Shown in pieces: positions 41,637 through 57,983 of a stretch of DNA of 64,000 nt. The DNA lies in contig NZ_RJUU01000002.1 of the NCBI RefSeq assembly GCF_003751445.1, positions 124,001 through 188,000 on the forward strand, in the 5' to 3' direction. Every line of letters starts with the position of its first letter. Position 1 is the first letter of the stretch. The notes under the pieces are model-generated. The model saw only the letters and a list, made by a program, of their open reading frames with translations. It ran no database searches and had not been told where the DNA came from. Both the position numbers and the translations under genes were made by a program. The DNA is from Streptomyces sp. 840.1. Its GTDB lineage: Bacteria > Actinomycetota > Actinomycetes > Streptomycetales > Streptomycetaceae.

Positions 41637-41727
41637 AACAAGGGGGTGTCCGCAGGTGGGATGCCGGCCGGAACCGCTCCGGCCGTGCGCCGAAGCGCCC
41701 CCGGGCGGTGGGCTATGCTGCGCGGCC

Positions 41728-41784: not shown

Positions 41785-41900
41785 GCGCCGTACGGGCCGC
41801 CGCCGGTCCGCCTTCCGACCGGGGATCCGGCGCTGCCGCGCGGGCCCCGCCTCCTGTCGTGCCGATCAGAGCCGACACGTTGACCACGACAGGAGAACCC

Positions 41901-42635
41901 ATGCCCACCACCACATTCCTGATCCCCACCGCGGACGGCCGGGCCGACGCGTTCGCCGCCTTCCCCGACGGGGGCGGGCAGCATCCGGGGGTGCTGATGT
42001 ACCCCGACGGCTTCGGCATCCGGCCCGTGCTGCGGGAGATGGCGAGTGAACTGGCCGGACACGGCTACTGCGTACTCGTCCCCAATGTCTTCTACCGGCA
42101 CGGACCGGCACCGCTGACCGAGCTTCCCGGGTACATCGGGGCAGAGGCCCGGCCCGCGGTGATGGCCCAGGTGATGCCCCTGATCCAGGCGCACACCGCC
42201 GAACGCGTCCGGAGCGACGCGGACGCCCTGCTGGAGTTCCTCGTCGGCCGTCCCGAGGTGTGCGACGGCCCGGTCGCGGTGACCGGGTACTGCATCGGCG
42301 GTCTCACGGCGATGCGCACCGCCGCCGCCCGTCCGGATCGGGTGGCCGCCGTCGCCGCTTTCCACGCCCCGGTGGCCGCCGACGGGCCCGGACTCTTCTC
42401 CGGGATCACCGCACGGGTCCACCTCGGCCACGCGGCGGGCGACATCACGCCCGACGGCCTGAGCGAGCTGAACCTGTCCCTGGACGCCGCGGGCGTCGGC
42501 CACACCTCCGAGATCTACCCCGGCACCGTCCACGGCTTCACCATGTCCGACACCGACGCGTTCAGCGCTTCCGGGCTCCGGCGCCACTGGGACCGCCTGC
42601 TGCCCCTCCTGAGCGGCTCCCTGGGCAGCGGCTGA
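41901..42635 (+). CDS. Dienelactone hydrolase family protein
   Basis: A 244-residue alpha/beta hydrolase. The nucleophile Cys131 sits in TGYCIGGLTAMRTAAA, the hallmark of the family, and the His is in YPGTVHGFTMSD; MYPDGFGIRPVLREMASELAGHGYCVLVPNVFYRHG is the conserved N-terminal region. The ATG at 41901 follows AGGAGAACCC. A 325-bp gap separates it from divergent lacZ. It may act on lactones of aromatic degradation or on carboxyester-like compounds; substrate unknown. Confidence 0.9.
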   Translation: MPTTTFLIPTADGRADAFAAFPDGGGQHPGVLMYPDGFGIRPVLREMASELAGHGYCVLVPNVFYRHGPAPLTELPGYIGAEARPAVMAQVMPLIQAHTAERVRSDADALLEFLVGRPEVCDGPVAVTGYCIGGLTAMRTAAARPDRVAAVAAFHAPVAADGPGLFSGITARVHLGHAAGDITPDGLSELNLSLDAAGVGHTSEIYPGTVHGFTMSDTDAFSASGLRRHWDRLLPLLSGSLGSG

Positions 42636-42645
42636 GGTTTCGGGA

Positions 42646-42685
42646 GCCGTGGCGCCGCCGGTCACAGGGCCGGCGGCGCCACGGC
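42646..42685 (+). terminator. Strong hairpin terminator after the dienelactone hydrolase gene
   Basis: Perfect 16-base arms (42646-42661 and 42670-42685) with an 8-base loop start 11 bases after the stop codon. This is a strong stem and probably ends plus-strand transcription. Confidence 0.8.
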
Positions 42686-42690
42686 GTCAC

Positions 42691-42730
42691 GGCCCGAAAA
42701 ATCAGAAAAACCCCACACGGAGTGGGGTTT
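42691..42730 (-). terminator. Intrinsic terminator of the STAND/nucleosidase operon
   Basis: Read on the minus strand, AAACCCCAC and GTGGGGTTT form a perfect 9-bp stem with a 5-base loop (42708-42730), followed by TTCTGATTTTT. A stem plus U-tract is the textbook rho-independent form and is rare in this genus. It lies 32 bases after the stop codon of the last gene of the minus-strand operon. Confidence 0.88.
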
Positions 42731-42761
42731 CTGCTGGTGGGACGTTCACGAGTTCCGCTGA

Positions 42762-42935
42762 CTAGCGACGATGCAGCAAGTTGATCATGCACTTCCCTGC
42801 GGCATCAAGGTCACTCCCCAGATAGTTGCGGATGCATGCAATCGCAATGGGGCACTCGGGGCAAGCCTGCATAGTCACATCAGGCACTGGCGGAAACGTT
42901 GCCTGACCTCTCGACGCCTGCGTTTTTATGTTCAT
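42762..42935 (-). CDS. Small Cys-rich protein, translationally coupled to the last STAND gene
   Basis: A 57-residue ORF beginning MNIKTQASRGQATFPPVPD and containing four cysteines at positions 25, 28, 34 and 49 (CPECPIAIAC and GKC). Its ATG overlaps the TGA of the 1254-residue NTPase gene (ATGA), and the operon terminator follows it. Coupling plus a CxxC pair make it a believable gene even though short. Four cysteines could bind zinc or an iron-sulfur cluster. No family is recognised. It is absent from the usual gene lists of this size and could be an accessory or inhibitor of the upstream NTPase (inference). Confidence 0.65.
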   Translation of the reverse strand: MNIKTQASRGQATFPPVPDVTMQACPECPIAIACIRNYLGSDLDAAGKCMINLLHRR

Positions 42936-45900
42936 TGATCGGACAAGGGCGCGATGTCAGTGATTTTTCCGTGCTTCAGCAAGGCATATCTGTGGCACTC
43001 ATGCAGCGACGGGTCGGTGTGGATGATGTGCCACAGCAGTGTCCACCCGCAGTCGGCTAGCCGGTCGGCAGCTTCCGGTGCCAGAAGCAGGGCATTCGGG
43101 CCGCCCTCGGTCAGTGACGGGTCGGTCAATGTGAGAGTGCCGGTAGCGGGATGAATGAAGTCCAGGCGTTGCCCCGTCCAGTGAATTCCGAGCTGCTCGA
43201 CGACCTGGCGCGTGGGTACCGACCGCCGATCAGGGAGGGCCGCACCGCCTCGCAGAGGAGGAGGGGCCGGCGTTTCTGGGTAAGAGACGGTTGTCGGCCT
43301 GTGAGGAATGCCCGACACGTCTAAGGTGGCGAAGTCGGGGTGGCGGTAGTACTCAGCCAGATAAGCATGGCCGGGCCAGTTTCCGCACAGCGCGTCGCCG
43401 AATCGATTAGTTTGCAATTTTTGGAGGGCCAGCTGCTCGCTTCCGGCGCGAACGAGCAGAGTGCTGATCTCCACGAAGGCGCTGCGCTCGGCTGGTCGCC
43501 TGGCCGGAGAGGCGGACCGCCAGTGGTCCCATGTGCTGATGGTGTTTGGCGACACGCGGAGGATAGGTAGAGTCTCGTCCTCCTCATAGGCCTCACGAGA
43601 ACCGTCGAGGTATTCGAGGTCGGCAGTGGCACGGGGGTGGAACTCGCCGTGAAGCAGTAGCCAGGTCTGGCCGTCCGGAGCCTGGACGGTGACGACATCC
43701 GAGCACGGAATGATCGCGGCCGGGTACGACCCTGTGAGGCTGTCCAGGCCTGGGGAAGTTCCCCACCAGGTCGATGACCTGAGGCTGGCGTTGGTCCTCA
43801 TGGGCCAGGCAGCGGAGAGAGTCGGGTCAGTGGTGCGCTGGTGATGGCGTGCTGCGCGGCTCTCACCGGGAGCCGCTGCGGGAAGCGTTCCGGCCGTGTG
43901 AGAGGCCTGCACCGCATACCATTCTTGCAGCGCCATGGTCAGTGCTTTTGTCCTGGCCACCTTCTCAGGCCATCCCACTCGCGGGCTGCCCGAACGAAAC
44001 AGGTTGGTCGGCAGCCGCCTCGGCTGCAGGTACTGGGCACGGCGCGAGAGCCAATGCAGCCGAGGCAGCGGCGAGATCTCAGGGAACGGGCTCCAGCTCC
44101 CGAGGAGGGCATGGATCCGGCTGATCTGGCGGCTCCGGCCGGGAACAAGGACTGCCGATGATGGCAACTTCAGAAGTACGGGTGGAAAGGAACGTCGATC
44201 GCAGGGTTCCCACAGGGCGCGAATGCTGGCAACGGAATCCTGGATTCGCAGATGGGGACGTGACTCGTCCCTCTCGACCAACCCGAGCCACCGCTGTCCC
44301 GACGGAAGGTCCGAGCACCGGACCAAGGATCCATAGGCGGCAAGCCACGCCGCCTCCGCAATCATCGCGTCTTGATGGTTCCCGAAGCGGGCGACCTGGA
44401 CCTCGGCAACATCCGGATGGGCCAGCCATAGGTCGGATGCTAGGCGCACGCACACGTCCCGCAACCCCTCGTACGGAACCGCGCTCAGCCACATGAGTAA
44501 GTTTGTGGCATCGAGCGCAGCATGAGCGTCCGCGTCCTGCATTCTGGTCCACGCCAGGAGCCTTCGTAGAAGATCGAGGCCGTCGTCATGGTCGATCAGC
44601 TTCAGGACGGGGAGGACGAAACGCTGGTGGAGCTGAGTGCGGCCCCACTTGTTCAATGTCTTGTCGAGGAAGGACCCGCCCAGTCGATGCCCCGGATAGG
44701 TGGCATTGACCAGGATCGAATACCAGGCCCACGGTGCAGCATCAGGCTGCTGCAGTTTCCTTAGGACGAATGCAACCGAGCTCTCGAGAACAAGCTCAGG
44801 GTCCCTCCCCTCAAGCGACTCTAGGACAACAATGTCGGCCTGGAGCGGGCGGCGCCGTGGCAGGAAGCGAGACAGTTCCAAATCGCTGCCTACATGCGGA
44901 GCGGCTCCTGCGAGAGCCTCAAGCATCCGCAGCGCCTCCACCGAAGGCTGTTCCGGTCCGTCGAGATCCTTGACCAGTCGTGCGACTGCCCGCGCTGGTC
45001 GAGGCCGGTACAGCAAATTCCGGGCTCGAACATGTTCGGCGAACCGTTGCACTGCGAAGCGCACATGGCCCTGGATCGGGTCGATACCGAGAACTCCCAC
45101 GCAGTGAAGCCAGTCGACCAGCTGTCCTTGGTCGGGGAACTCGTGACTGTCACCGAGAGTACGTAGCACCGCCCGATACTCAATCGACTCTCGTACTCCG
45201 ATAGCCTCCGCGATGAGCTCGCAGGCCCGGCTGACCAGAGGAGGAGCACCGCGGACAGTACTGTGCCCGCGGCGCTGTGCCCAGTCCGCGTCCAGCGTGC
45301 GAAGCCACATCTGGAACAGCTCGCCCACGGTTGGCACCTTGACGAAACCGTCCTTGGGCTCGAGCGAGTGGTGAATTGACCACGCCAGGACCGATAGCAG
45401 AAGGGGGCGACGCAGGTCCCGGATGTCCGGCGGGAGGATCAGTGGCGGGAGATTGTACATATTCTGATACATCCGCCATGCCGCCAGGGGATCCGTGACC
45501 CCGGCGTTCCATCGGAACGCGTACTGCCGCTTACGAACCACATCAACGGCATACTCCCCCACGCTCAGTGGTCGGTCCATCCGGATCGTGGCCACCACCG
45601 TGACGTCAGGGAAATCAGCAGCGAGTTCCACTAGCGCCGCGAACGCCACCTGCGGATCGCCTCTGACCGCATCCACCTCGTTGAGGGCATCGATAATGAG
45701 AACCGCACGTAGTCCCAAGCTCTGGGCATGCGACTGGAGCGCGCCAAGCAGCTCCTGAGCCGAGCTACGCCTTTGCGCACCGCACAGCTCGGCGAGCTGC
45801 TGCTCGAAGCCCCGCCGCCCATCGAATTGGTAGCCGCAAACCAGGGCCGTCGGTGCCCCGACAGCGACCCTGGACTCGACCCAGCTGGCCACACCGTACG

Positions 45901-46696
45901 ACTTCCCCGTTCCCCAGCCTCCCGCGATCAGCGCACCGCCCGTGACACGCGCACCCAGCGCCGTATCCGTACACACTCCGCTGAGCAGGAAGGCGCAAGC
46001 GTGCAGATCCTTCAGAATCGCCGTGAGATAACCTGCGGCCTGCTTCTGTTCGAATGATCTCTCGGACTCGCGGGGTAGGCACGCCCGCTGCGCCGCGAGC
46101 AGAGACCTGCTCAGAGTCGACATGGAGTCCACGACTACAGCTGTGCCATCTATCGTTTCTGACAGTGCCCGTTGCACCGCCCAAGCCTTGTCACAAGAAG
46201 ACTCCATCAGCAAGCAGGAAGCAGCTTCCAGCTCCGTGCTACATGAATCGCGCAGTTCGGAACCTTGAGCCCATAGATCGATGGCCGCCAGAGCGGCATC
46301 GTCAGTCAGGAACAGGCCACCAGAGTCGGGAACCCAACCTGCCCAAGTCCGTAGCGCTAGTGCGGCCCGGCGCATCCGCTCGGCCGCTGGGACAAGATCG
46401 TCCAGCTCTTCAAGCGCGGCTGCAAGATCGGTGCGGAGCATTGGCACCGGAGTTCCATCCAGCGCAGGGCGGTAGCAGAGGCCCCTGGCCATAGCCAGTG
46501 CGTGCCGGTGGAGCACTTCCAGTGGTACGTGCGGCAATTCGACCCCACCGGACAGGTAGTTGACTGTCAGGTCGCCGTTCTGTACAGCGTTGACCGTGCT
46601 CCCATCGGTCGCGGTGTTGCTCTGAACTGGAGAGGTCCCTGCGGCATCGGGCGCCACTGCGGAATCCATGCTGTCACGCAAGGGATCCTTACTCAC
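42932..46696 (-). CDS. Large STAND-like P-loop NTPase with N-terminal VNAVQNG motif (A)
   Basis: A 1254-residue protein starting GTG at 46696. Residues 24-47 hold VQSNTATDGSTVNAVQNG plus DLTVNY, a motif shared with three neighbours. A helical region of about 200 residues precedes the NTPase core: Walker A GGWGTGKSYGVASW at about residue 257, and Walker B AVLIIDALNEVD at about 330. VVATIRMDRPLS afterwards fits the sensor-1 arginine/strand of STAND ATPases. The C-terminal 800 residues are helical or mixed and unrecognised, and would be the sensor. DNA is less GC-rich and uses more A/T-ending codons than the surrounding genes, suggesting transfer. The role is probably a signal-transducing switch in immunity or programmed cell death. 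Confidence 0.8.
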   Translation of the reverse strand: MSKDPLRDSMDSAVAPDAAGTSPVQSNTATDGSTVNAVQNGDLTVNYLSGGVELPHVPLEVLHRHALAMARGLCYRPALDGTPVPMLRTDLAAALEELDDLVPAAERMRRAALALRTWAGWVPDSGGLFLTDDAALAAIDLWAQGSELRDSCSTELEAASCLLMESSCDKAWAVQRALSETIDGTAVVVDSMSTLSRSLLAAQRACLPRESERSFEQKQAAGYLTAILKDLHACAFLLSGVCTDTALGARVTGGALIAGGWGTGKSYGVASWVESRVAVGAPTALVCGYQFDGRRGFEQQLAELCGAQRRSSAQELLGALQSHAQSLGLRAVLIIDALNEVDAVRGDPQVAFAALVELAADFPDVTVVATIRMDRPLSVGEYAVDVVRKRQYAFRWNAGVTDPLAAWRMYQNMYNLPPLILPPDIRDLRRPLLLSVLAWSIHHSLEPKDGFVKVPTVGELFQMWLRTLDADWAQRRGHSTVRGAPPLVSRACELIAEAIGVRESIEYRAVLRTLGDSHEFPDQGQLVDWLHCVGVLGIDPIQGHVRFAVQRFAEHVRARNLLYRPRPARAVARLVKDLDGPEQPSVEALRMLEALAGAAPHVGSDLELSRFLPRRRPLQADIVVLESLEGRDPELVLESSVAFVLRKLQQPDAAPWAWYSILVNATYPGHRLGGSFLDKTLNKWGRTQLHQRFVLPVLKLIDHDDGLDLLRRLLAWTRMQDADAHAALDATNLLMWLSAVPYEGLRDVCVRLASDLWLAHPDVAEVQVARFGNHQDAMIAEAAWLAAYGSLVRCSDLPSGQRWLGLVERDESRPHLRIQDSVASIRALWEPCDRRSFPPVLLKLPSSAVLVPGRSRQISRIHALLGSWSPFPEISPLPRLHWLSRRAQYLQPRRLPTNLFRSGSPRVGWPEKVARTKALTMALQEWYAVQASHTAGTLPAAAPGESRAARHHQRTTDPTLSAAWPMRTNASLRSSTWWGTSPGLDSLTGSYPAAIIPCSDVVTVQAPDGQTWLLLHGEFHPRATADLEYLDGSREAYEEDETLPILRVSPNTISTWDHWRSASPARRPAERSAFVEISTLLVRAGSEQLALQKLQTNRFGDALCGNWPGHAYLAEYYRHPDFATLDVSGIPHRPTTVSYPETPAPPPLRGGAALPDRRSVPTRQVVEQLGIHWTGQRLDFIHPATGTLTLTDPSLTEGGPNALLLAPEAADRLADCGWTLLWHIIHTDPSLHECHRYALLKHGKITDIAPLSDQ
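46556..46621 (-). repeat. Shared peptide-motif coding segment, NTPase A copy
   Basis: Encodes SNTATDGSTVNAVQNG followed by DLTVNY (residues 26-47). The core VNAVQNG and the preceding T-A-x-x-G-G/S pattern are shared with copies at 50194-50259, 56184-56249 and 56345-56410. Confidence 0.8.
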
Positions 46697-46818
46697 CGAC
46701 AGGACCTACCTCTCCGGCGGGCCACACCGGTGCCGGGAACCTCTCGCCAAGGACAGCAGGGACCGCGTGCCTGGCACAGAATTGCGCCCGTTGCCTCAAA
46801 AGCATGATGAAATGCCTC

Positions 46819-49800
46819 TCACCACTGTCGGCGGACATCGAAGTCCAAGTCCTCTCTGAGCGCTCTGCCGATTTCGGCACTCGCGTGCTCCTGGAGTGCG
46901 GCGTACAGGCGATCTTCCAGGGAGCCAGCGGGCAGAATTGTCCGGACCCGAGTGGCGCGCTCCCGAATTTCAAGATCCTTCGGATACGGCTCGCCGGGCG
47001 ACGTCGATTTCACTCCCGATGTGACAGAGCTCATCAGATAGCCGCCGACCCTGCGGTACAACTCTTCCGAATGCTGGGCGGCAGCGTGTAGCACCTCGGT
47101 TACGAACTCGGTCTCTTCCCAGAGGAGTTCGCTATGCGCCCCGCTCAAGAGCGGTGCGACAGCGGTCATCCGGGCGGGGTCGCTCGATCCGAAGGACTCC
47201 AGCAGCACCTCGCGCACCTGACTGTCGTATACGCCGCCTGTGACGATCGTGAACAGATTGGTTCCGTACAGTTCCCGGCGCCAGGGCTTCTCCCTCTGCT
47301 CCTCGAACCACTGCACCAGCTTCCGCAGGAGCTCGACCCGGTGTGGACTGTTCCTGAAAGGTGGCGCGGCGCTCCATGCGTAGGGCAGCGGCTGGAAGCC
47401 CCGACCAGGATCGTTCTCCCACGTCTCCAGCCGCTCCAGCATCAGTCCGAGCGCCTCATCCTCATGCGCTTCCGACAGGGCCGCAATAGCTGACTGGACG
47501 CGGTGATCGTCCAGTGTCGGCGTCTTGGCCAGCTCTCCTGCACAGGCGGTTCGCTGATCCCGAGTGAGCTCGGGCCAGGAGAGGGCGTTCGGGCCGATGA
47601 ACGCCCAGCAGAAGTCCGCCGCCCCGCGTCCCAGATCGGAGAAGGGGACAGAACAGAGGAGTGCGATCGCCTCCGGGCGCGAAGCGGAGTGGCGGATCAT
47701 CGCGACGGCCAGGCGCAGGACCTCCGTACGAACTGTGGTGTCGGCGTGAGTGGACAGCCGACTGGCCATCGTGAACTCCTGCGGGCGAAGTGCCTCGCCT
47801 ATTGCCAGCCGTGCTGTGCTCGCCCGCACCAAGGCTCGGACGGACGCGGCACGGTCTGTATCAAGGAGATCCACCGCCACCTGCTCGGCGCTTTGCGGCT
47901 CGCTCCCCCACAGGGCTTTCAACGCCGGCGCAAGGACAAGATCCACTGTGCTGTCGTCGCACTCCAGTGTTCCGCGGATGATGGCCACTGTGCGAGCGGG
48001 CTGGTCCAAGGTCATGCTGGCGATGAGCGCCGTGCAGCCTGACGGAACCTCAGCGAACACTTGCATGCCTGTCTCCAGCAAGTCGCGCAGGACCTCCCAA
48101 GCCGTGCCATTGGCCCAGGCCGAGGCTTGGACAGCAGCTTCGGACACTTGGCGCTGCCAGTCGTTGTCAGCCGCTTCGAAGTCGTACTCCTCGTTCACCA
48201 CTGCCCATTCGTGGGGGTCGCTGTACATCAGCACGGCGAGCCGGTGCGGAAGCGAATCGGGCAGGGCGTCCAGAACTGTCTGCGCCGCCGCGGCGGCTTG
48301 CTCAGAGCCGTATGCCACATGCCAATGGACCGATCGCCGCACAGCCAGCGCGACCAATGGCCCGGGTTGGACCTCACGGGTACGAGCGGCCAGCGCCTCC
48401 AGCGCCGGAACCAGTGAATCCTCGAACGGCCCGCTCTGATCTCTGAATGCCTCTGCGAAACTGCGCGCCGCCGCGCCCGCTTGCACGGGATCCGGCGAGC
48501 CGTAGGCATCGAGCAGCACCTGGTAGGCCCGGGCGCGTACGGTGGCCACGGGCTCGGCCAGCAGCGGAAGACGGGAGATCGTGAGCGTCCAGCCGTTGGC
48601 TTCGTGGCGTTCTGCAGTGGTCTCGAAAATGCGGTCCAGTAGTGCGAACGGCATCCGACCGGCAGAGCTCACCGCGCCCTGCCGGGCCCATCGGGCGACG
48701 GCATCGATCACGGCCTCCTGATAGAGCAGCGGCTTGTCAGGTGAATAGGAGGCGAGATCGCTGAGGAGTCGCAGCGCCGATTGGGGGGTCGAGTGGAGGG
48801 GGCGCAGATCGTGCTGCCCGAGCTTCCACAGCAGGTCGAGAGCCTCGCCGAGATGGTCCGGGTCATGAGCGGCCGCAGCCAGTACCAGAGGAACGTCGTC
48901 CAGGACGTGGCACGCGTCGGCTGTGTCGGCCTCCACCACTGGACGCAGGAGATCGAGGACCCGCCGCGGCTGGAACGTGGCGATTTTGCGGACGACCTTT
49001 AGCAGGCTGCTCTGGGTGACGGGATCCCCCTCGGTGTACTCCTGCTCAAGGAGGTGCCACAGCGGTTCGACAGGGGACTGGCCGAACGGCCGGAGCCTCC
49101 TCCACTGCCAGTCCACCCGGCCCGTGTTCACCAGCAGGTTGGTCAGCGGTTCTCCGTCGGTCTCGGCAAGGACGCGTTCGAGGAAACCGGTTGACGCCCC
49201 GCTTTTGGGATCGATCGCGGCCTCGGCCAGCAGGACGTCACCCAGCAAGTCGGGCAGGATCCGGTGCGAGTTTCCCCGGCGTGTCAGGACTCCGCTGTCC
49301 ACCAGTCGACTCAGTTGAGCGCGAAGGACGGTGTCCGAGGTGCCGAGCAGGGCTGCCATTGCTTCGAGGAAGCGAGGGGCATCTGCGCGCACGGGCTGCA
49401 AGGCCGCGACCGCATGCAGCAGGGCCTGGTCCTCGTCATGCGTCGCCGGGTCCGCCAGGGCTGTTGCGATGAACGCCTCCGATACTTGCTGGTGCAGGCT
49501 GGCGTCGCTCTCCAGCCAACGGGGATCGAGCCTGCCGCGTGCGATCTCCACCGCGCTGAACACGAGCAGGAACGGCGAGTCACCCACGGCTGCGGCAAGC
49601 CGACGGGCCAGGTGCTCCTTCGCCTCGCCGAGTGCCTGTGCCGCGAGGGCGGCTGCATCACGCGTCGAGAGCTCCCCGAGTTCCCATGTCGGCACCTCGG
49701 CGTCATCCACCCGGAGTTGCCTGAGTGTCTTCCTGAGCGCTGCTGTGCCGGACGGCCGAGTTGAGACGAGTACGACGGCCTTGGGCCGTTCACGTCGGAG

Positions 49801-50331
49801 CTCCCGGACGATCCCTGTCAGGTCTTCGGGACGCTGGTGGGCATCCTCAATGATGATGAGCAGGGCGGCATCTGCGGGCAACCGCTCGGCGAGACGGTGG
49901 CCGACGGGAGCAATGGCAGGCAGCACCCTCACGACGCCCTCGGCGCGGTGGGCGAACTCTGCAGCGAGAGCGCGCAGCACACGGCTCTTGCCTCCCCCAG
50001 CCGCGCCGAGGAGGACACCGATCCTCCCCTCTGTACGGCCTTCGCCCGTCGTGAAGGAGCTCAGCTGTTCGACGAGCTCTGACCGACCCACCAGGTCCCA
50101 GCGGTGGGAGAAGTAGGCGGCAGCCTGCGGATCGTCGAAGGCTTCGTGCGGCGTGAGCCACGGATCGGGTGCGCTGGGCTCCACATGGAGGTGATGGTTA
50201 ACCATCAGAGGACCGTTCTGCACCGCGTTGACCATGCCGCCGCGAGTAGCCGTATTCCTCTGGACAGGGCCGTGGGTGTCAGGTCCTGCGTGGTCAGGCT
50301 CTGTGCCACTCGGCGTGACGTTCTCATCCAC
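46819..50331 (-). CDS. STAND-like P-loop NTPase with N-terminal VNAVQNG motif (B)
   Basis: A 1170-residue protein with GTG start at 50331. Residues 23-46 hold VQRNTATRGGMVNAVQNG and PLMVNH. A short linker leads to an orphan-type AAA/STAND core: FSHRWDLVGRSELVEQL, Walker A GAAGGGKSRVL (residues 109-119), Walker B ALLIIIEDAHQ (about 155-165) and VVLVSTRPSG (sensor). The winged-helix part follows near LVDSGVLTRRGNSHRILPDLLGDVLLAEAA. The remaining 750 residues are helical repeats of HEAT/TPR type, the usual ligand-sensing part of STAND proteins. It is 62 bp after nucleosidase C. Confidence 0.83.
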   Translation of the reverse strand: MDENVTPSGTEPDHAGPDTHGPVQRNTATRGGMVNAVQNGPLMVNHHLHVEPSAPDPWLTPHEAFDDPQAAAYFSHRWDLVGRSELVEQLSSFTTGEGRTEGRIGVLLGAAGGGKSRVLRALAAEFAHRAEGVVRVLPAIAPVGHRLAERLPADAALLIIIEDAHQRPEDLTGIVRELRRERPKAVVLVSTRPSGTAALRKTLRQLRVDDAEVPTWELGELSTRDAAALAAQALGEAKEHLARRLAAAVGDSPFLLVFSAVEIARGRLDPRWLESDASLHQQVSEAFIATALADPATHDEDQALLHAVAALQPVRADAPRFLEAMAALLGTSDTVLRAQLSRLVDSGVLTRRGNSHRILPDLLGDVLLAEAAIDPKSGASTGFLERVLAETDGEPLTNLLVNTGRVDWQWRRLRPFGQSPVEPLWHLLEQEYTEGDPVTQSSLLKVVRKIATFQPRRVLDLLRPVVEADTADACHVLDDVPLVLAAAAHDPDHLGEALDLLWKLGQHDLRPLHSTPQSALRLLSDLASYSPDKPLLYQEAVIDAVARWARQGAVSSAGRMPFALLDRIFETTAERHEANGWTLTISRLPLLAEPVATVRARAYQVLLDAYGSPDPVQAGAAARSFAEAFRDQSGPFEDSLVPALEALAARTREVQPGPLVALAVRRSVHWHVAYGSEQAAAAAQTVLDALPDSLPHRLAVLMYSDPHEWAVVNEEYDFEAADNDWQRQVSEAAVQASAWANGTAWEVLRDLLETGMQVFAEVPSGCTALIASMTLDQPARTVAIIRGTLECDDSTVDLVLAPALKALWGSEPQSAEQVAVDLLDTDRAASVRALVRASTARLAIGEALRPQEFTMASRLSTHADTTVRTEVLRLAVAMIRHSASRPEAIALLCSVPFSDLGRGAADFCWAFIGPNALSWPELTRDQRTACAGELAKTPTLDDHRVQSAIAALSEAHEDEALGLMLERLETWENDPGRGFQPLPYAWSAAPPFRNSPHRVELLRKLVQWFEEQREKPWRRELYGTNLFTIVTGGVYDSQVREVLLESFGSSDPARMTAVAPLLSGAHSELLWEETEFVTEVLHAAAQHSEELYRRVGGYLMSSVTSGVKSTSPGEPYPKDLEIRERATRVRTILPAGSLEDRLYAALQEHASAEIGRALREDLDFDVRRQW
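50194..50259 (-). repeat. Shared peptide-motif coding segment, NTPase B copy
   Basis: Encodes RNTATRGGMVNAVQNG followed by PLMVNH (residues 25-46). It is the copy most similar to that of NTPase A over the whole length (VQxNTATxGxxVNAVQNGxLxVN). Confidence 0.8.
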
Positions 50332-50393
50332 CTTCGCGCTCTCCTTGTCTGCTGCGGGCAGGACGGACGCCGGACGTTCCTGTCTCGGATATG

Positions 50394-51914
50394 TCAGAAA
50401 CCGCGCTTCGGCTTGCGGAAGCTGTTGAGCAGACGAGCGGTGAGTTCCTCGGCGACGCTGTCCCTGTTACTGGTCAGGTCCGTCATAGTGAGGGTTTCGT
50501 CCGGCTGGACTCGCAGGAGATCACCTCTCATCCAGGGATGAGCCCTGGACCGGGGCATCCGGCTGACCTCGTCTTCGCTGACCGTCATGGCGGGATCGAC
50601 CCCGATGCCCAGGGCGACGGATCTGGGGTCAGACAGGGGAAGCCGGGTGAGCAGGGTCAACAACTGGGAGATCTGCTGGGGTAGCACGGCCGGGTCCAGA
50701 ATGGCTCCCATGCCGTCATGGGGGAGTGGCTGCCAAGCGGAGCGTTGCCCTGTGCGCAGCACCGCAAGTCCGCTGGCGGCCTGACGTACGCCTCCTGCGG
50801 CTGCCATTGCCCGTTGGTCGTCGGCAGTCGAGGCAACGAACTCGGCAAGAGTGAAGAATCCGCTCGCGCGCCCGAGGACCATGAGCTCCTCACTGAGCTG
50901 GGCCAGCCTGCGGACCTCTATCCGGCTGCCCGAAGGCACTGGGACGAGGTGGATCTCCAATGCGGCGGGGCCGGCACTGAAGGCGGAGTTGTGGCCCGGT
51001 CTGCGCCAGTCCACCTCGACGGTCCCGGTCACGGGTTCCCACCGCACTCCCTGACTGTGGGCCGCCGTCTGCGCACCGGTGCTGTGGGAGAAGCCTGCGG
51101 GTCCCAAGCCGTTGGAACCGGTCAAGGGTAGGTGCTCGCTGGCGGCCGTACCCGTAGGAGGCGTGAGCGCCGTGATCACGGTGATGGCGGCCGCGGCCGC
51201 ATGTGCTGCTGCTTGCGGCTGGTTTCCCCCCGCGTCCGCTGCGTGCTTTTGCCCGTCGGCCTTGTCGCTGATGCCTCGGATGGTGAGAGCGTCCAGGTGG
51301 CCGGCGAGGTGTACTGCCCGGGCGAAACCTGCGCTCTCCATCTCAATCGCCACCGCGTCGTTGTAGGTGTGGCGCAGTTGGTCCGACAGTGGGTTGTCTG
51401 CGGAGTTGAGAACGACATCGCCGGCGGCGATGGGCTTGAGTTGAACGGCGGGCGTGCGCTGTGGTCGTCGGCTGCGGATCTGGATGGTCCACTCGCCGGA
51501 CCGCAGAGTGTGACGAGCGGCCTGTTCGAGCCAGTGGGAGGCATCCCAGGCACTTGGACGGGCCATGAACCCGCCAGGGTCCAGCTTGCCTCCCTGGTAG
51601 GCATAGGTCTTGGTCGCGACCACGACATCACCGAGTTCGAGGCCGTCCTTGATAGCTCCGGCTACACCGACGAAGAACACGGCGGCCGGCTTCAGCCAGG
51701 AGTTGATCCGCTCGGTGAGGGCTGCGGCATTGGTGTTGCCCTCACCGAGTTCGGCGAGCGCCACCCGCCAGGGCGTACCCGGCAGCGCCCCCTCCTCGAC
51801 CCGAGTCCCCATCTCGTGTTCGTAGCTCTCCAGGTCGGTGAGATGGGCGTGCACCGCCTGGAATTCCAGTTGAAGCGCGGTCAGAACCACCACGCGGGGG
51901 CCGGGTCGGATCAC
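50394..51914 (-). CDS. PNP/MTAN-type nucleosidase with unknown C-terminal domain (C)
   Basis: A 506-residue protein starting GTG at 51914 with an AAGGAA site. Residues 5-240 are a nucleoside phosphorylase/MTAN fold: VVVLTALQLEFQAVHAHL, VFFVGVAGAIKDGLELGDVVVATK, AVAIEMESAGFARAVHLAG for ribose binding, and TIRGISDKADGQK with the catalytic Asp. It is a clear paralogue of protein E. Unlike E it lacks the VNAVQNG tail. Instead about 200 residues follow (AALEIHLVPVPSGSRIEVRRLAQLSEELMVLGRASGFFTLAEF onward), a domain I do not recognise. In conflict systems such nucleosidases are effectors that destroy a nucleoside or nucleotide; the substrate is unknown. Confidence 0.85.
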   Translation of the reverse strand: MIRPGPRVVVLTALQLEFQAVHAHLTDLESYEHEMGTRVEEGALPGTPWRVALAELGEGNTNAAALTERINSWLKPAAVFFVGVAGAIKDGLELGDVVVATKTYAYQGGKLDPGGFMARPSAWDASHWLEQAARHTLRSGEWTIQIRSRRPQRTPAVQLKPIAAGDVVLNSADNPLSDQLRHTYNDAVAIEMESAGFARAVHLAGHLDALTIRGISDKADGQKHAADAGGNQPQAAAHAAAAAITVITALTPPTGTAASEHLPLTGSNGLGPAGFSHSTGAQTAAHSQGVRWEPVTGTVEVDWRRPGHNSAFSAGPAALEIHLVPVPSGSRIEVRRLAQLSEELMVLGRASGFFTLAEFVASTADDQRAMAAAGGVRQAASGLAVLRTGQRSAWQPLPHDGMGAILDPAVLPQQISQLLTLLTRLPLSDPRSVALGIGVDPAMTVSEDEVSRMPRSRAHPWMRGDLLRVQPDETLTMTDLTSNRDSVAEELTARLLNSFRKPKRGF

Positions 51915-52049
51915 AGGGAAGTTCCTTGTCGTCGTCGTTGGTGAGGAAGCACGGGCTCGCAGGACGCCTTTGCCCCCTGCACCCGGCGTGCGCAGGGGCC
52001 CGGCATGCGAGACCGCAGTAGCCATACATGTCTGGGGCCTTGGCAAATC

Positions 52050-55000
52050 TCATTCGTCCAGTCGTTGCAGCGCAGAGGCGCTGGGATGCTGGGCAAGGGC
52101 GAGACCGTCCACCACCGCCCGGAAGTGCGGCCGGGCGCAAGCGGTCACCTCGGGGTGCAGGTCCTGTAGCCATTCGGCCAGGGAGAGTCCGGCGGAGTCG
52201 ATCTTCCCGGCGCTGTTGACACACAGCTGCCGTACCCACCGCAGGCCAGGATCGACCTGCTCGTGGACAGGCTGCGCCTTGAGGAACCCAATGAGGTTGT
52301 CGACCGCGAACCACCCCTCACCGGCCGAGGTGGTCCAGTTGTCGACCATTTCGGCCAAGGGCGGTAGTGGAAGCCACCGACTGCGGGCCTCTCGCAGGGT
52401 GCCGTCGATGTCCTGATCCATCATCGACGGCACGGGGTTGGGTATGAGCTCTCCCATCAGCGACTCGTAGTCGTGCCGCGCGAAGCCGTCGTCATCTCTG
52501 TCCGCGTGAACAGGTACGGGCTGAGTCAGGGCCGATTCCATGAGATAGGGCCAGTTGGCGGTGAGGGGCCGCACGAGCTCTCTCTCATAGGTCGCGGCGG
52601 TCTTCAGGCCCCTCAGCAGGTGGCTGAGTGCCGATGGAGAGCCGGCGAGCCGATCGGCGAACCCGTGCAGCACGGCGGGCTCCGTGTCGGCGGCGCGCAA
52701 GAGGGATACCGCCAGCGCCGCGTGCTTTTCCGTATGCGGTTCGTTGCCCCAGGCGGAAGCTGCTCGCGTATAGGCGTCCAGCAGGGGTCCCCGCAGTGCC
52801 AGGGCCTGGGCCGTACGGCAATGCTGCACCCGAGCGGCTTCCAGGATCGCGGGCACGGTGGTCTCTAGGAAGGCCGGAGTCGTCTCCTCCCCGCCCAGGC
52901 GGTCCAGTGCTATGGCGAGCACATCCGAGGACGAGTCGATCCCCCAGAGGCCAGATCGGCTGCCTCCGTCAACCAGTACCAGGCCGACGAAGGCTTCTAC
53001 GGCGCTCCAGGCGAACACGTGATGACAGCCGATATCGCCCGTCGAACATGACACCGACCAAAGCGGCCGCAATCCCTCGACAGCGTACTCGCGTACCTCG
53101 TGGACGGGATGGGCCGCGGCGTGCACCACCGCTGCGTGGACGCGCATGGTGCGGTCAGCGTCCAGAAGCGGCGGTGCCGACGAGGCAATCGCGGGTACAA
53201 GCACGCGCGGCAACGCGAGGGCTGCCAGACGGCTCCCTGACCAGGGATGTGTGGCATCCGGGCTGCACGAGAGGTCTACCGGCTCCTGGACAGCAGCAAC
53301 CAGCAGATCCACCGACCAGCGCAGGTCCTCAGCACACGGCGCATTGCCGACCGCTGCCATGTGCACGGCAGCCGCTGCGACCGCGTACAGCCCGTCGGTC
53401 ATCTGGGCGCCGTCGTCCGCCAGACTCTCGCGGAGCTCACGCGCCGCCCGGAGATCGAGGACCAGCAAGCCGGGGTCGGTGAGAACCGGATCACTGACGC
53501 GATGCGGCATAGTCCGTCGAAGCCCATACCGGTTGAGCAGCTCATACTGTTTCGAGGTGCGGCCCGCCCGAGTCCGGCGGCTGTCCAGCTCCCGCTGGAT
53601 GTCCTCGGACGGCCGGACCTCGACAGCCACCTGGTTGCCGTGCCGTGCCAGGGTGAAGCACTCCCAGTCGAGGTGATCGGCCCAGGATCTGATTTCCAGG
53701 CCGTTGATGCCGTCCGGTGCTGCTACGCGCAAGCGATCGGCCACGGCTCTCAGCCGCGCGACAGCCTTCCGGTCTTCCCGGTGCACGGCTTCGACAACGA
53801 GGGACATCGCGATCTGGGTCGGCGAGCGCTTCAACCATTCACTGCCGGTCAGTTCGTCGCCTCTGCGGAACATGCTGTCGCTGACGAAACGGCTGTACTC
53901 AAGCTCCCAGACGAGTGGCAGGGACAGGAAGCTGTCCAGCTCATCTGTGACTTCGTCCAAATGGCGAAGGAGCATGCCATGCACGAGACCGAGACCGGCG
54001 ACCGTTCCCACGCGGGTCAGTACCAGCCCGGCGGCCTCGCGCACCGAGGCAATGCCCGGTCGAACGAGTTCCGGCTCCAACCAGCGGTCCAGAGCCATGA
54101 GCGCGCTGATGCACGGCTGGGGACCATTCAAGACACCCCGGTACCAGGACCAGGCTTCCGTATCGCCGGCGTAGTTGCGCAGACCAGTGCCCAGGAAGTC
54201 GCCCGTCAGGCCAGGCCCTCCCGTGCTTCCACCGTCGTCCCCGTCCTCACCCTCGTCCAGGAACCGACCCCTGTCACCGCAAAGCTCGACGGTGCCCTTG
54301 ACGATGACCTCGATCAAACTCAACCCACTCGGGGGATCTGCCTGGAGGAGTGAGAAAAACGGCCCGCGCCACCACTGGGCCTGGCGCTGAAGAACGCCGC
54401 CCAGGAACTCGTGCTCCCCCATACGCCATCGCCACCGCCTAGCACCGTGCCCACGCCGCCGATCGCAAGGTGGCAGATAGTAGGCTGCGGCCAACTCCAC
54501 CAGCAGAGGGGGGTCGGTGGCCGCGAGGCACCTACCAGCCTCGGTACGGTCCACCGCCGGCATGAGGCAGCGCGGGCGCCTGCGGGCCAGGTCCTTCAGC
54601 ACGTCGCCTGCGGCACCGCTGCGGTCGCTGCCGAGCAGTGCCAGCGCCTCGACGAACGAGGCCGAGGGATACTCGGGGGCCTCCCGGAGCATGGCCTCGC
54701 GCACCAGGATCCGTACCGGTCGCTGATGCTCCACGTCCAGCCCGAGGGCCTCCTGCTGGGATACGCCGCGCAGCCACGCGAGGACGACCGCGTCACCGGG
54801 GTGGTCCTCGCGGTGGGAGAAGATCTTCGTGTGCCGTGCGAGCCACTCGACGACCGGGGCCGCGACGAGAGGGTCACAGGCCCCGCCGTCACCGAAGCGC
54901 AGCATGGTGCACCGCAGGAGCCCGCTCAGCAGGTCCGGCTCGCGGGTGAGCTGTCCGGTCAGGGCGGCGAGGGCGTCTGCGCACCAGCCGGCGGACAGCA

Positions 55001-56327
55001 CCGCCTCCCAAGGGACCTCTTCCCAGCGTATTCCGTGCAACGCCGCGAGTTGCACGAACTGCCGGTGTGTCCGGTTCCAGCGGGTGCTGAAAGCGCTGGG
55101 TGTATCCGGGCCGGACCGCAGTCTGACCTGACAGTAGATGCGGCCAGCGCGAACGGCCCACCGAGGGCCGTCGGCATCCAGTAGAGGAAGGCCGTCATCC
55201 AGCAACAGACGTCTGGCAGTGGCGAAGTCCCTCAGCACGTCGTGGGCGAAGGCGTGTTCCTCGTTTGAGGTCACCGACGCCTCGTCGAGGGGCGCGAGAA
55301 TGCCGTCCGAGCGCAGCGAAGCCAGTGCCGCGCCGAGGACGGACGACCCGCGGCGACCCGTCAGCCGGCCCTCGGCCAGCGAGAGCAGCGCTTGCCCACG
55401 GTCCTCGGACGCCACCCCGCCGACAGCCCGACCACTATTCAGGACGAAGGCGAGCCAGACATGCGTATAGACGTCGGCTTCGCTCGCCAGGAGCAAGGGC
55501 AGCTCGGTACCCCGCTTAGCGGAACGGAGCAGAAGGTCGACAAGCGCGATCCGGCGCAGCAGCCAACGTGAACGGCCGCCGTCGGCAATCCTTGCCAACT
55601 GCGGTACAGAGGTGAGGATTTCGGTAATCTCACGATCATCCAAAGGGGGCACGGTGACCTCGCCGACATCTGTGCAGCCAGCTCGATCGAGCAGTCCGCG
55701 CAGCGTGTCCACCGCGTCGTCGCGGCTGACCAGCACAGGTACCAATCCGGCAGTCATCGCCGCGCCAACGGCCTCCGCGATGAGGTCCTCGAACCCCTCC
55801 TGCGCGGCCTCGGCACCGTCCAGAACCAGGATCCCGGGCGGAGCGGACGCCCCCGGTGCGCCGCCATGGCCCACCGCCGCACGAACCAGTGCCTCCAGAC
55901 CGCCCGCGTATGGAGCCATCGCCCGGACGGCAGCCGCTAACACCCACATGGAACGGTCACGCAGCTCGTCGATAGACCGTAGGACCATGGCAGTCTTGCC
56001 GACACCCGGCTCTCCACGGACGACCACAACCTGATGGGGACGATCGCAGCCGAGCGTGCCGCTCAGGCAGGCAAGCGCAGCCGCTCGGTCGATCGCCAGC
56101 ACCTGGCCGGGCCCGATGCCCAACGTTCCCGGGCTGCGCCGCAGACTTCTCTCCCACTGGGCGAAGAGCAGCTTCCCGTCAGGCCCAAGAAAGTACTGGT
56201 TGCCGTTTTGGACGGCGTTGACGGTACCGCCGGCATCGGCATGGTTGGTCTGCGCCATTGGTTGCTCGTAGAGGGGGAGCGATGGCTTGGGCTGCGGGTC
56301 CTCTGCTGGCTCGTCGTCCTCGCTCAC
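52050..56327 (-). CDS. Very large STAND-like P-loop NTPase with VNAVQNG motif (D)
   Basis: A 1425-residue protein starting GTG at 56327, its start overlapping the stop of nucleosidase E (GTGA). Residues 27-48 hold TNHADAGGTVNAVQNG and NQYFLG. The NTPase core has VVVVRGEPGVGKTAMVLRSI (Walker A, residues 105-112) and GILVLDGAEAAQEG (Walker B, about 165-172), then VPVLVSRDDAVDTL as sensor. An FAHDVLRDFATARRLLL segment is the winged-helix end seen in STAND NTPases. About 1000 helical residues follow as a sensor. It is the direct partner of E by overlap and motif. The region is GC-poorer in places than flanking genes. Confidence 0.85.
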   Translation of the reverse strand: MSEDDEPAEDPQPKPSLPLYEQPMAQTNHADAGGTVNAVQNGNQYFLGPDGKLLFAQWERSLRRSPGTLGIGPGQVLAIDRAAALACLSGTLGCDRPHQVVVVRGEPGVGKTAMVLRSIDELRDRSMWVLAAAVRAMAPYAGGLEALVRAAVGHGGAPGASAPPGILVLDGAEAAQEGFEDLIAEAVGAAMTAGLVPVLVSRDDAVDTLRGLLDRAGCTDVGEVTVPPLDDREITEILTSVPQLARIADGGRSRWLLRRIALVDLLLRSAKRGTELPLLLASEADVYTHVWLAFVLNSGRAVGGVASEDRGQALLSLAEGRLTGRRGSSVLGAALASLRSDGILAPLDEASVTSNEEHAFAHDVLRDFATARRLLLDDGLPLLDADGPRWAVRAGRIYCQVRLRSGPDTPSAFSTRWNRTHRQFVQLAALHGIRWEEVPWEAVLSAGWCADALAALTGQLTREPDLLSGLLRCTMLRFGDGGACDPLVAAPVVEWLARHTKIFSHREDHPGDAVVLAWLRGVSQQEALGLDVEHQRPVRILVREAMLREAPEYPSASFVEALALLGSDRSGAAGDVLKDLARRRPRCLMPAVDRTEAGRCLAATDPPLLVELAAAYYLPPCDRRRGHGARRWRWRMGEHEFLGGVLQRQAQWWRGPFFSLLQADPPSGLSLIEVIVKGTVELCGDRGRFLDEGEDGDDGGSTGGPGLTGDFLGTGLRNYAGDTEAWSWYRGVLNGPQPCISALMALDRWLEPELVRPGIASVREAAGLVLTRVGTVAGLGLVHGMLLRHLDEVTDELDSFLSLPLVWELEYSRFVSDSMFRRGDELTGSEWLKRSPTQIAMSLVVEAVHREDRKAVARLRAVADRLRVAAPDGINGLEIRSWADHLDWECFTLARHGNQVAVEVRPSEDIQRELDSRRTRAGRTSKQYELLNRYGLRRTMPHRVSDPVLTDPGLLVLDLRAARELRESLADDGAQMTDGLYAVAAAAVHMAAVGNAPCAEDLRWSVDLLVAAVQEPVDLSCSPDATHPWSGSRLAALALPRVLVPAIASSAPPLLDADRTMRVHAAVVHAAAHPVHEVREYAVEGLRPLWSVSCSTGDIGCHHVFAWSAVEAFVGLVLVDGGSRSGLWGIDSSSDVLAIALDRLGGEETTPAFLETTVPAILEAARVQHCRTAQALALRGPLLDAYTRAASAWGNEPHTEKHAALAVSLLRAADTEPAVLHGFADRLAGSPSALSHLLRGLKTAATYERELVRPLTANWPYLMESALTQPVPVHADRDDDGFARHDYESLMGELIPNPVPSMMDQDIDGTLREARSRWLPLPPLAEMVDNWTTSAGEGWFAVDNLIGFLKAQPVHEQVDPGLRWVRQLCVNSAGKIDSAGLSLAEWLQDLHPEVTACARPHFRAVVDGLALAQHPSASALQRLDE
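56184..56249 (-). repeat. Shared peptide-motif coding segment, NTPase D copy
   Basis: Encodes TNHADAGGTVNAVQNG followed by NQYFLG (residues 27-48). In the stretch after VNAVQNG it shares NQ with the motif in protein E rather than the xLxVN of A and B, which suggests that D and E are a cognate pair. Confidence 0.8.
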
Positions 56328-57262
56328 CGATCAGTTACCTGGGGTCCGTAATTGATGGTCTGGTTGCCGTTCTGGACGGCGTTGACCACCCCTTTTCGAT
56401 CCGCCCTGTTGACCTGCCTCGGGCCCTGCGCAAGCGCAGGCGCATCATCGGCGGGCCCGGGTTCCTGCCCTGTGGCGCCGCTTATATCGTCGTCGCCTGG
56501 TAGAGCGGCGATGACAGCCATGGCAGCCGCTGCGGCATGTGCGGCTGCGATCTGCTGGCTACCGCGGGCATCGGCGGACGCCTTGGCGCCGTCCGCGCAG
56601 TCGCTGATGCCCCGGATCGTCAACACGTCGACCTTGCCGAGAACGGCTGCTGTCGCCAGCCCCGCGCTCTCCATCTCAACCGCCACTGCGTCGTTAAAGA
56701 CGTTGGTGAGGCGCTCCCGCAGTGGGGAGTTCATTGAGTTCAGGACGGTCTCACCGGCGGCGACGGGTTTGACGTGGACCTCAGGCAACCGGTCAGGCTG
56801 AAACGCGCCCGCACGCACCCTCTCCGTCCACGCCGTTCCGCGCAGGCTGTGCTTCGCGGCCTGCAGCAGGCCGTGCGAAGGCTCCCAGGCCGCTGGACGG
56901 GCGAACTCCGCGTCGGACGCCTGCTTCGATCCGTCGTAGGCGTAGATCTTGTCCGCGACCACGACATCACCGAGCCTGACATCCGGCTTCAGGCTGCCAG
57001 CTACCCCGACGAAGATGATCGCCCGAGGTGCGAAACGGGCCCTGGCCCGCTCAGCGAACGCCGCTGTCGCTCGGTTCCCCGGCCCCACCTCCGCGAGGAC
57101 AACCTGGTGACCCGAGCCCGTCACCTCTCCGGCTTCGAACCACGTCCCTTCATGGATCACCCTGCGCGGATCGACGAGATGCGCGCGCACGGCCTCGTAC
57201 TCCAGACCGATCGCCGTCAGTACAATGATCGGACCAGCAGGTCCGAACTCACCTGTGAGCAA
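56324..57262 (-). CDS. PNP/MTAN-type nucleosidase with C-terminal VNAVQNG tail (E)
   Basis: A 312-residue protein. I take TTG at 57262 as start because GGAGGG stands 7 bases before it; a TTG eight codons earlier (57286) lacks this site. Residues 10-260 are the nucleosidase fold: IIVLTAIGLEYEAVRAHL, IIFVGVAGSLKPDVRLGDVVVADK, VAVEMESAGLATAAVLG and TIRGISDCADGAKASA with the catalytic Asp. A disordered linker (DDDISGATGQEPGPADDAPALAQ) leads to KGVVNAVQNGNQTINYGPQ at the end. Effector domain plus terminal motif is the layout of effectors recruited by NLR-like proteins. Likely promoter-proximal gene of the operon. Confidence 0.88.
   Translation of the reverse strand: MLTGEFGPAGPIIVLTAIGLEYEAVRAHLVDPRRVIHEGTWFEAGEVTGSGHQVVLAEVGPGNRATAAFAERARARFAPRAIIFVGVAGSLKPDVRLGDVVVADKIYAYDGSKQASDAEFARPAAWEPSHGLLQAAKHSLRGTAWTERVRAGAFQPDRLPEVHVKPVAAGETVLNSMNSPLRERLTNVFNDAVAVEMESAGLATAAVLGKVDVLTIRGISDCADGAKASADARGSQQIAAAHAAAAAMAVIAALPGDDDISGATGQEPGPADDAPALAQGPRQVNRADRKGVVNAVQNGNQTINYGPQVTDR
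56345..56410 (-). repeat. Shared peptide-motif coding segment, nucleosidase E copy
   Basis: Encodes NRADRKGVVNAVQNG followed by NQTINYG near the C-terminus of nucleosidase E. This is the only copy at a C-terminus; the three others are N-terminal in the NTPases. Confidence 0.8.
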
Positions 57263-57443
57263 AGGACTTTCCCTCCGCGGCTGCAACGTCTCCCGAGCGT
57301 ACCGCTGCCCACTGACAGCCCGGTCTCGGTCGGGCGGGCCAAGTGCTGCCCCGTCGAGATAGTTGTCGCCTCCCTTTCATCGCCCGTCGACCGACACAGA
57401 GTTGGCGGTCGGCATCTTCACTCCCAGCAACGGGGAAACAGAC

Positions 57444-57983
57444 GTGGCAACGACCGAGGACATCACCGTCGGCAAGCTACTCCTGGCCGAGTACGACCGA
57501 GTGAAGGAGGAACAGAAGACTCGAATAGGGTTTCGGGACAATCTGCTCTACGTCACGCTGGCTGTGATGGTGACAGTGCTGATTGGCGCGGCCCAGACGA
57601 ACCAAGCCGCCATGCTGCTGGCACTACCTGCCGCCACCTCCATCCTCGGATGGACTTACCTGGCGAACGATCAGAAGATCAGCGCGATTGGCCGCTACGT
57701 CCGAAGCAACCTTGGGCCCCGCCTGGGTGAACTCGCTGGCCAACAAGAGAGCCCCTTCGGATGGGAAACAACCCACCGGTGCGACGGCCGTCGGAGGCAA
57801 CGCAAGATCATCCAGTGTGCTGTCGACCTCACTGCCTTCGGCGCGGTTCCACTGGCAGTCCTCGTCGCCTTCTGGATTTACGGAACTGGAGGGTTCCTGC
57901 CAGTCGCTGTCTCCGTTCTGGAGACCTTGGCGGTCGCTGTTCTGGCTACCCAGATTGTCCTCTACGCCGAGACTGAGTCGTAA
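57444..57983 (+). CDS. Four-helix membrane protein divergent to the STAND operon
   Basis: A 179-residue protein, GTG at 57444 with GGGGAAA 5 bases before it. The N-terminus is a charged helix (KLLLAEYDRVKEEQKTRIGFRDN) followed by two transmembrane segments (LLYVTLAVMVTVLIGAAQ and AAMLLALPAATSILGWTYLA), a basic loop (RCDGRRRQRK), and two more (LTAFGAVPLAVLVAFWIYG and VAVSVLETLAVAVLATQIVLYA). A charged helix before transmembrane pairs resembles membrane effectors of bacterial conflict systems in general layout, but I cannot place it in a family. It shares a 181-bp divergent promoter region with the nucleosidase E gene. Confidence 0.7.
   Translation: MATTEDITVGKLLLAEYDRVKEEQKTRIGFRDNLLYVTLAVMVTVLIGAAQTNQAAMLLALPAATSILGWTYLANDQKISAIGRYVRSNLGPRLGELAGQQESPFGWETTHRCDGRRRQRKIIQCAVDLTAFGAVPLAVLVAFWIYGTGGFLPVAVSVLETLAVAVLATQIVLYAETES

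Follow-up and report, generated by a model that had tools for sequence, protein, structure and literature searches.

The locus and its genes

The subject of this account is a minus-strand operon of Streptomyces sp. 840.1, which lies in a stretch of 64,000 nucleotides (nt; hereafter the window) covering positions 124,001-188,000 of one contig (G000:C2) of a genome of 8.84 Mb in 4 contigs. The operon consists of five large genes in the order E, D, C, B, A, two of which encode nucleosidases (E and C) and three of which encode what look to be STAND-type NTPases (D, B and A). A motif of ~22 residues, of the form QxNxA...GxVNAVQNG..., was found in the translations at the very C-terminus of E and, in each of D, B and A, at approximately residues 25-47, and suggests that E, and not C, is tied to all three of the NTPases. 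The genes and the four copies of the motif, which were located by translation, pattern and alignment, are as follows.

56324-57262, minus strand: E, PNP_UDP_1 nucleosidase (1.5e-32) of 312 residues, proposed effector, with the C-terminal motif behind a variable linker
52050-56327, minus strand: D, STAND-like NTPase of 1425 residues, proposed receptor (AAA_16 1.3e-5 and NACHT 0.015, both below cut-off)
50394-51914, minus strand: C, PNP_UDP_1 nucleosidase (2.9e-27) with an extra conserved alpha/beta C-terminal domain and no motif
46819-50331, minus strand: B, STAND NTPase of 1170 residues, proposed receptor (nSTAND_NTPase5 34.0 bits, equal to the cut-off of 34)
42932-46696, minus strand: A, Avs2-related STAND NTPase of 1254 residues, proposed receptor (PADLOC Avs2 1.1e-37)
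56351-56416, minus strand: C-terminal motif of E, QVNRADRKGVVNAVQNGNQTIN
56190-56252, minus strand: N-terminal motif of D, QTNHADAGGTVNAVQNGNQYF
50200-50262, minus strand: N-terminal motif of B, QRNTATRGGMVNAVQNGPLMV
46556-46624, minus strand: N-terminal motif of A, QSNTATDGSTVNAVQNGDLTVNY

An earlier note on this DNA had proposed a six-gene operon running in one direction, with an overlap between E and D and gaps of 62-135 base pairs (bp) between other genes. This layout holds for the five large genes, which are real; E and D overlap by 4 bp and the gaps are 135 bp (D-C), 62 bp (C-B) and 122 bp (B-A), whereas the proposed sixth gene, for a peptide of 57 residues, does not stand (see below), and the note included neither the shared motif nor the divergent gene at 57402-57983. 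The start of E was set at TTG 57262 on account of the GGAGG upstream of it, and for C the GTG at 51914 was preferred because of an upstream AAGGA, which makes C a protein of 506 residues; a start at 51893, as chosen by the gene caller, would widen the D-C gap to 156 bp.

A motif shared by one nucleosidase and three NTPases

A DNA pattern for the core of the motif, VNAVQNG, matches the whole genome four times, once each in E, D, B and A, whilst the reversed pattern has no match; a looser pattern returned the same four matches, more divergent forms not being sought. Within the window the four matches compare with 0.02 expected. The C-terminal 60 residues of E, aligned with the N-terminal 80 of D, B and A, gave scores of 87, 79 and 68 respectively, none of which was reached in 2000 shuffles; of the pairs of receptors, B and A have the most similar N-termini (score 97). 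The best local score for the motif in C was 25, which 164 of 1000 shuffles of C reached, and the motif is therefore taken to be absent from C. N, Q, G and residues with beta-branched side chains are abundant in the motif.

The motif is conserved in homologues of the proteins that carry it. An alignment of E was made from 23 of its 24 best matches (P0007-P0030, including the E of the window and excluding P0026), with identities of 50-90%, and the motif is kept in all 23 rows, with Q283, N285, A287, V293, Q297 and G299 invariant behind a linker that cannot be aligned. The same is true of all seven rows of D (the window, L049, L051, L052, L056, L114 and L116, leaving out the near-duplicate L050 and two fragments of L115), where Q26, N28, V36, A38, Q40 and G42 are invariant within an otherwise variable N-terminus, and of B, where QxNxA...G...AVQNG is kept in 4/4 rows.

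E-type proteins scoring above 289 bits are encoded at eight loci outside the window (L049-L052, L056 and L114-L116), the next best protein scoring 243. At every one of the eight D lies next to E on the same strand, although in L115 it is broken into two open reading frames (ORFs), and both proteins carry the motif at all seven of the other loci where both could be read. E and D occur alone in L056, L114 and L116; B is present as well in L051 and L052, and in L049 a motif-bearing gene resembling B lies on the far side of the gene for a membrane protein that is described below.

A search of 394 genomes of the family for the seven residues VNAVQNG gave 24 matches in 20 genomes, with seven in effector or receptor position (four in G000, the present genome, two in G148 and one in G186) and three in proteins of ~600 residues. 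Furthermore, at another locus (L046) a protein of 159 residues with the motif near its end is encoded directly 5' of a TPR protein of 975 residues that begins with the motif, and which matches nSTAND_NTPase5 below the cut-off; here a different pair of effector and receptor has the motif in the same positions. The proteins of ~600 residues (L034:9614-11872, L038 and L039) have GTVNAVQNGNIYY at about residue 130 and lie beside proteins of 142-143 residues, that of L034, at 143 residues, ending in the variant VNAVVNG; these are possibly a further motif-linked pair.

The two nucleosidases

In addition to PNP_UDP_1, both E and C match the PN-superfamily effector of PADLOC (5.6e-16 for E), and they are 53% identical over the PNP part, so that the description of the pair in the earlier note as paralogous nucleosidases of the PNP/MTAN type is supported. 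The closest solved sequences to both are 5'-methylthioadenosine/S-adenosylhomocysteine (MTA/SAH) nucleosidases, or MTANs, and the model of C superposes on MTANs (best E 2.9e-18), with Glu12Gln and Asp197Asn mutants named among the matching structures. Glu198 and Asp221 are invariant in 23/23 rows of E, and Glu21 is present in 90% or more; the three align with conserved acids of the MTANs, which in E. coli we take to be Glu12, Glu174 and Asp197, and E thus has the PNP/MTAN fold together with its catalytic acids.

The C-terminal domain of C (50394-51200, minus strand) contains an invariant GQRSxW...LP stretch in 20 rows and has an alpha/beta model; it matches no Pfam family, with only DUF6011 at 0.18, no fold search having been made with the domain alone. 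Some relatives of C with the extra domain (L062, P0043, P0051 and P0064) have a variant motif, V..VQ.G, between their two domains, which is missing in C.

Single chains that combine PNP_UDP_1 with NB-ARC or AAA and with TPR are found by Pfam among the relatives of E (L123, 917 residues, and L120, 1600 residues). Two very long chains were recognised by eye, one joining PNP to apparent TIR and HSP70 parts (L117:2-5881, minus strand) and one joining PNP to NB-ARC/AAA and TPR (L119), and a NUDIX domain is also present in some relatives of E. Eighteen of 96 remoter nucleosidases, in the region P0083-P0119 of relatives from metagenomes, have the pattern NARVGVQG..VTIHGGIQLG after or beside the PNP domain, which is perhaps a second family of signalling motifs.

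The three NTPases and the N-terminal slot of A

STAND NTPases are defined by a P-loop, Walker B, a sensor-1 Arg and a GxP-like motif. The first three are kept in all aligned rows of A (13/13), B (4/4) and D (7/7), and the GxP-like motif can be recognised clearly in A, as RRP, and for B in three of the four rows. All three proteins look like STAND-type NTPases, D the least clearly, and in this the profile searches and the motifs agree with the earlier note, with Avs2 for A, nSTAND_NTPase5 for B and the weakest matches for D. Past residue 60 there is no likeness between B and A (score 56, maximum of 30 shuffles 81), whilst there is between D and B (104 vs 73) and, slightly, between D and A (74 vs 63), and at least A and B are therefore unlike receptors with the same tag. 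The sensor-like C-terminal regions of B and A are conserved in their homologues.

The match of A to the Avs2 profile of PADLOC runs over residues 184-796 and takes in the NTPase and a portion of the sensor region. Against the solved Avs2 structure (PDB 9o4e) A scores 2.7e-4 alone and 9.6e-17 with a profile of 13 rows, over 572 positions, beyond which the likeness is negligible, the remaining C-terminal part matching 9o4e only weakly (2.5 bits); the NCBIfam cut-off for Avs2 is missed by A by a wide margin (91.7 vs 1000 bits). The nearest named relatives of the proteins of the stretch are from Streptomyces, the best homologue of A being 96% identical (Streptomyces sp. MAA16). The operon was also sought on plasmids and the idea rejected, with no match for A and for D eight matches below 60% identity, the best rows at 24-32%. 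The distant plasmid relatives of D have N-terminal extensions, which in L135 include a trypsin-like domain.

Twelve homologues of A and one weak match were found, and in the twelve the N-terminal slot is occupied by the motif (five), by a RHIM-like sequence (three), by a nuclease-like domain (three) or by neither (one). Those with the motif are P0127-P0131, and P0132 begins after that position. In three Kitasatospora proteins (P0135-P0137) the N-terminus MAN(F/Y)IEGGEFHG..VQ..TVGELH replaces the motif, a sequence that we take to be RHIM-like. P0133, P0134 and P0138 have an N-terminal domain with FE.LC...DGG.E...QAK, and the N-termini of all three resemble P0139. Since P0133 and P0134 match the Avs2 profile from its 16th-18th position onwards, their matches cover the start of Avs2, where its nuclease lies; the best profile stretches of others begin at residues 213 (P0135), 153 (P0129) and 311 (P0138). 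A itself starts with the motif and has no N-terminal nuclease domain of the Avs2 kind.

Judged by names, P0128-P0132 each have a homologue of E in the same strain or species. The listed homologues of E, 120 of 164 and many of them nameless, include none that could be matched by name to P0133-P0138. This fits a need of the motif form of A for E, a pattern that shared ancestry could also yield.

Comparison with known systems

The same motif is thus found at the C-terminus of a candidate effector and at the N-terminus of candidate receptors that are encoded by adjacent or overlapping genes, as in bacterial NLR-associated amyloid signalling, for the bacterial motifs of which (BASS) Dyrka et al. 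2020 is reportedly the source. In such signalling a short motif is described at the C-terminus of an effector and at the N-terminus of the product of an adjacent or overlapping NLR-like gene, and the effectors named are BELL and, less often, CHAT and TIR (PMC7889193). The placement of the motif is the same in E and in D, B and A, and the genes of E and D overlap, but here the effector would be a nucleosidase and a single operon has three receptors with the motif. These two features are unusual, as is a relative of Avs2 without its nuclease.

Fungal PNP_UDP effectors with amyloid motifs (PUASM and HRAM) have been described, the motif peptides of which form fibres (PMC9815663). As in the present operon a PNP_UDP domain has a C-terminal motif in common with the N-terminus of a neighbouring NLR, but the hosts are fungi and their motif has another sequence, FxGxGxQxxGxGxF. 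In bacteria PNP_UDP has been described as an immune ATP nucleosidase (PMC10197012), and E has the fold and catalytic acids in common with such enzymes, ATP as its substrate being a guess. PNPase domains are also listed in NTPase-centred conflict systems, some with SLATT membrane proteins (PMC7159879, PMC8195603); these likewise tie a PNP-type effector to NTPases and sometimes include a small membrane protein, but there the coupling is by a folded adaptor domain, whereas here it would be by a short motif, and the membrane protein of the present locus has no SLATT match.

The closest likeness of A is to Avs2 (AVAST type 2), with which it aligns as described above, but it has the motif in place of the N-terminal nuclease-like domain. 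Avs2 recognises the phage large terminase. The literature covered was limited to open-licence papers, within which nothing was found on Avs2 together with amyloid, and absence in print is therefore not established; on nucleosidases together with amyloid signalling and NLRs the same literature gave, besides work on motif detection, only fungal or unrelated papers.

Proposed function and alternatives

We consider it reasonably likely that the operon is a danger-sensing module, probably antiphage, in which several receptors share one effector and are wired to it by a short homotypic motif. D, B and A would each bind a cue by their C-terminal part, bind nucleoside triphosphate, oligomerise and cluster their N-terminal motifs. 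Such a cluster would serve as a template for the corresponding motif at the end of E, and E would thereby be assembled and switched on. Activated E would split a purine nucleotide or nucleoside, with ATP as the best guess, at its N-glycosidic bond, and its activity would halt or kill the cell before phage maturation. C, which has no motif, is probably a second effector or a regulator, and probably comes from a unit of nucleosidase and membrane protein that is found elsewhere without NTPases; the divergently encoded membrane protein may be the membrane arm of that unit. The role in immunity or cell death, which the earlier note had drawn from families and layout, is one that we too infer.

A number of observations weigh against this interpretation. 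P0026, one of the best matches of E, ends in a degenerate VQAVQGDG, and the remoter PNP relatives (P0031-P0126) mostly lack the motif, a loose pattern locating it behind the PNP domain in 5 of the 96. The N/Y residues next to the core mismatch between the E and D of one locus in L056 and in L116, so that there is no tight co-variation of the two proteins. The seven-residue core alone is unspecific, 14 of the 24 matches in the family being unrelated (12 of them in one protein of ~400 residues), and for this reason its count in relatives was rejected as stand-alone evidence. No clear GxP motif is seen in the seven aligned rows of D, and PADLOC and Pfam name no system for the operon. Finally, neither E nor C reaches any NCBIfam cut-off (best for E 87.8 vs 169 bits), and for E no substrate is assigned by family.

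The same wiring of receptors and effector could be achieved if the motif were an ordinary, non-amyloid homotypic adaptor, in which case clustering rather than prion-like templating would activate E. All of the sequence evidence for pairing fits this equally, and effector-associated adaptor domains are a documented alternative in STAND-type systems (PMC8195603), but a motif of this shortness and composition, which exchanges with a RHIM-like pattern in the same slot, speaks against it, and we regard a non-amyloid adaptor as unlikely. A second alternative is that the functional unit is E with D, whilst B and A obtained the motif by recent copying of an N-terminus and act as co-receptors, decoys or regulators of D and E (or through C) rather than as independent receptors of E. 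It would explain why E and D are found at all eight loci, at three of them alone, with B and A optional, and also the likeness of the B and A N-termini; however, B and A have intact P-loops and conserved sensor-like C-terminal regions of their own, and those relatives of A to which a nuclease-like domain is fused presumably act alone; we consider this account distinctly improbable. That E and C are simply metabolic nucleosidases of the MTA/SAH type adjoining the NTPases would seem very improbable indeed, for whilst their best-named NCBIfam matches are MTAN and futalosine hydrolase and their best fold matches are MTANs, those NCBIfam scores are far below cut-off, the genome has four further PNP_UDP_1 genes elsewhere, close relatives of E are motif-bearing and paired with D, and PNP is fused to STAND NTPases in other proteins.

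A more specific proposal can be made, although we would put it at slightly below an even chance: three unlike STAND receptors would converge by templating on one nucleosidase, one of them being a phage sensor of the Avs2 type whose built-in nuclease has been exchanged for a short prion-like motif. An exchange of this kind would mean that, by the swap of a tag of ~22 residues, an antiphage receptor with a private effector can be connected to a shared one. A family of Avs2 relatives with a nuclease-like domain, a RHIM-like motif or the present motif in one slot makes the signal relay of STAND receptors testable, and by swaps of motifs and domains also the sharing of effectors by bacterial receptors, as occurs with some fungal and animal immune proteins. 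If true, the proposal would also link the nucleosidase effectors of bacteria with the amyloid systems in which fungi use PNP_UDP.

The ends of the operon and its surroundings

The remaining features are the two ends of the operon, an ORF that is not counted as a gene and the divergent gene.

42706-42732, minus strand: hairpin with a T run, terminator-like (11 pairs; the surrounding 65 nt fold at -25.2 kcal/mol)
42762-42935, minus strand: ORF of 57 residues overlapping A by 4 bp, unsupported as a gene by homology, codon usage or Shine-Dalgarno sequence
57263-57401, no strand: intergenic region of 139 bp between E and the divergent membrane-protein gene, presumed from its position to be a promoter region
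57402-57983, plus strand: four-helix membrane protein of 193 residues (model mean predicted local distance difference test 83.5), beyond the coordinates of the earlier note

A strong terminator had been placed at 42691-42730, and a hairpin with a T run does lie there, with the most pairs of seven terminator-like sites in the region, but such sites are no commoner than in shuffled sequence (mean 6.8). No sigma-70-like promoter was found in 41500-59000 by a simple model that covers few Streptomyces promoters. The 57-residue Cys-rich peptide, put forward as a component of the operon, is present in the sequence and overlaps A, but was rejected as a sixth gene: a protein search gave no homologue, there is no Pfam or PHROG match, nothing like a Shine-Dalgarno sequence precedes it within 25 bases, and its codon-usage score is 0.25, compared with medians of 7.6-12.8 and minima of -3.1 to 5.2 for windows of 57 codons in seven neighbouring genes, scores that are favoured as five of the seven genes were in the training set.

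The copy of the membrane protein in the window has no Pfam match, and 20 homologues gave only scattered single matches; SLATT was considered and rejected, as it is absent from the 15 families listed when 20 members were scanned against Pfam at E up to 1. The model matches no PDB fold (best E 1.7). A profile of the gene found 55 places in 52 of 297 genomes, 37 of them within 6 kb of a PNP gene and 21 within 500 bp, and it flanks seven of the eight E-D loci as well as C-type nucleosidases without an NTPase (L060 and L063). Of 18 copies without a listed PNP gene eight were inspected, one having a weaker PNP match nearby; the neighbours of such copies include a phosphofructokinase, a transposase, response regulators, a methyltransferase and others, and the gene is thus not always tied to a nucleosidase. 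On this distribution the protein is taken as a predicted conserved functional partner of the E/C nucleosidase clade.

The G+C content is 64-69% from ~42 kb to the right end of the window, compared with 69-79% to the left, and remains at 65-69% for ~8 kb past the right end, where there is a tRNA-Leu (G000:C2:192696-192783). This low-G+C stretch, which comprises 42000-64000 of the window and G000:C2:188001-196000 and reaches past the tRNA-Leu, is probably an acquired defence island or genomic island. An attachment-like repeat between the tRNA-Leu and the left part of the island was sought and rejected, the longest exact match of 14 nt being within the 11-15 nt given by 30 random 80-mers. Directly beyond the membrane-protein gene, at 58263-62072 on the plus strand, lies a gene for a RecD-like helicase whose entire length is matched, at 1431 bits, by the PADLOC phage-defence candidate PDC-S68.

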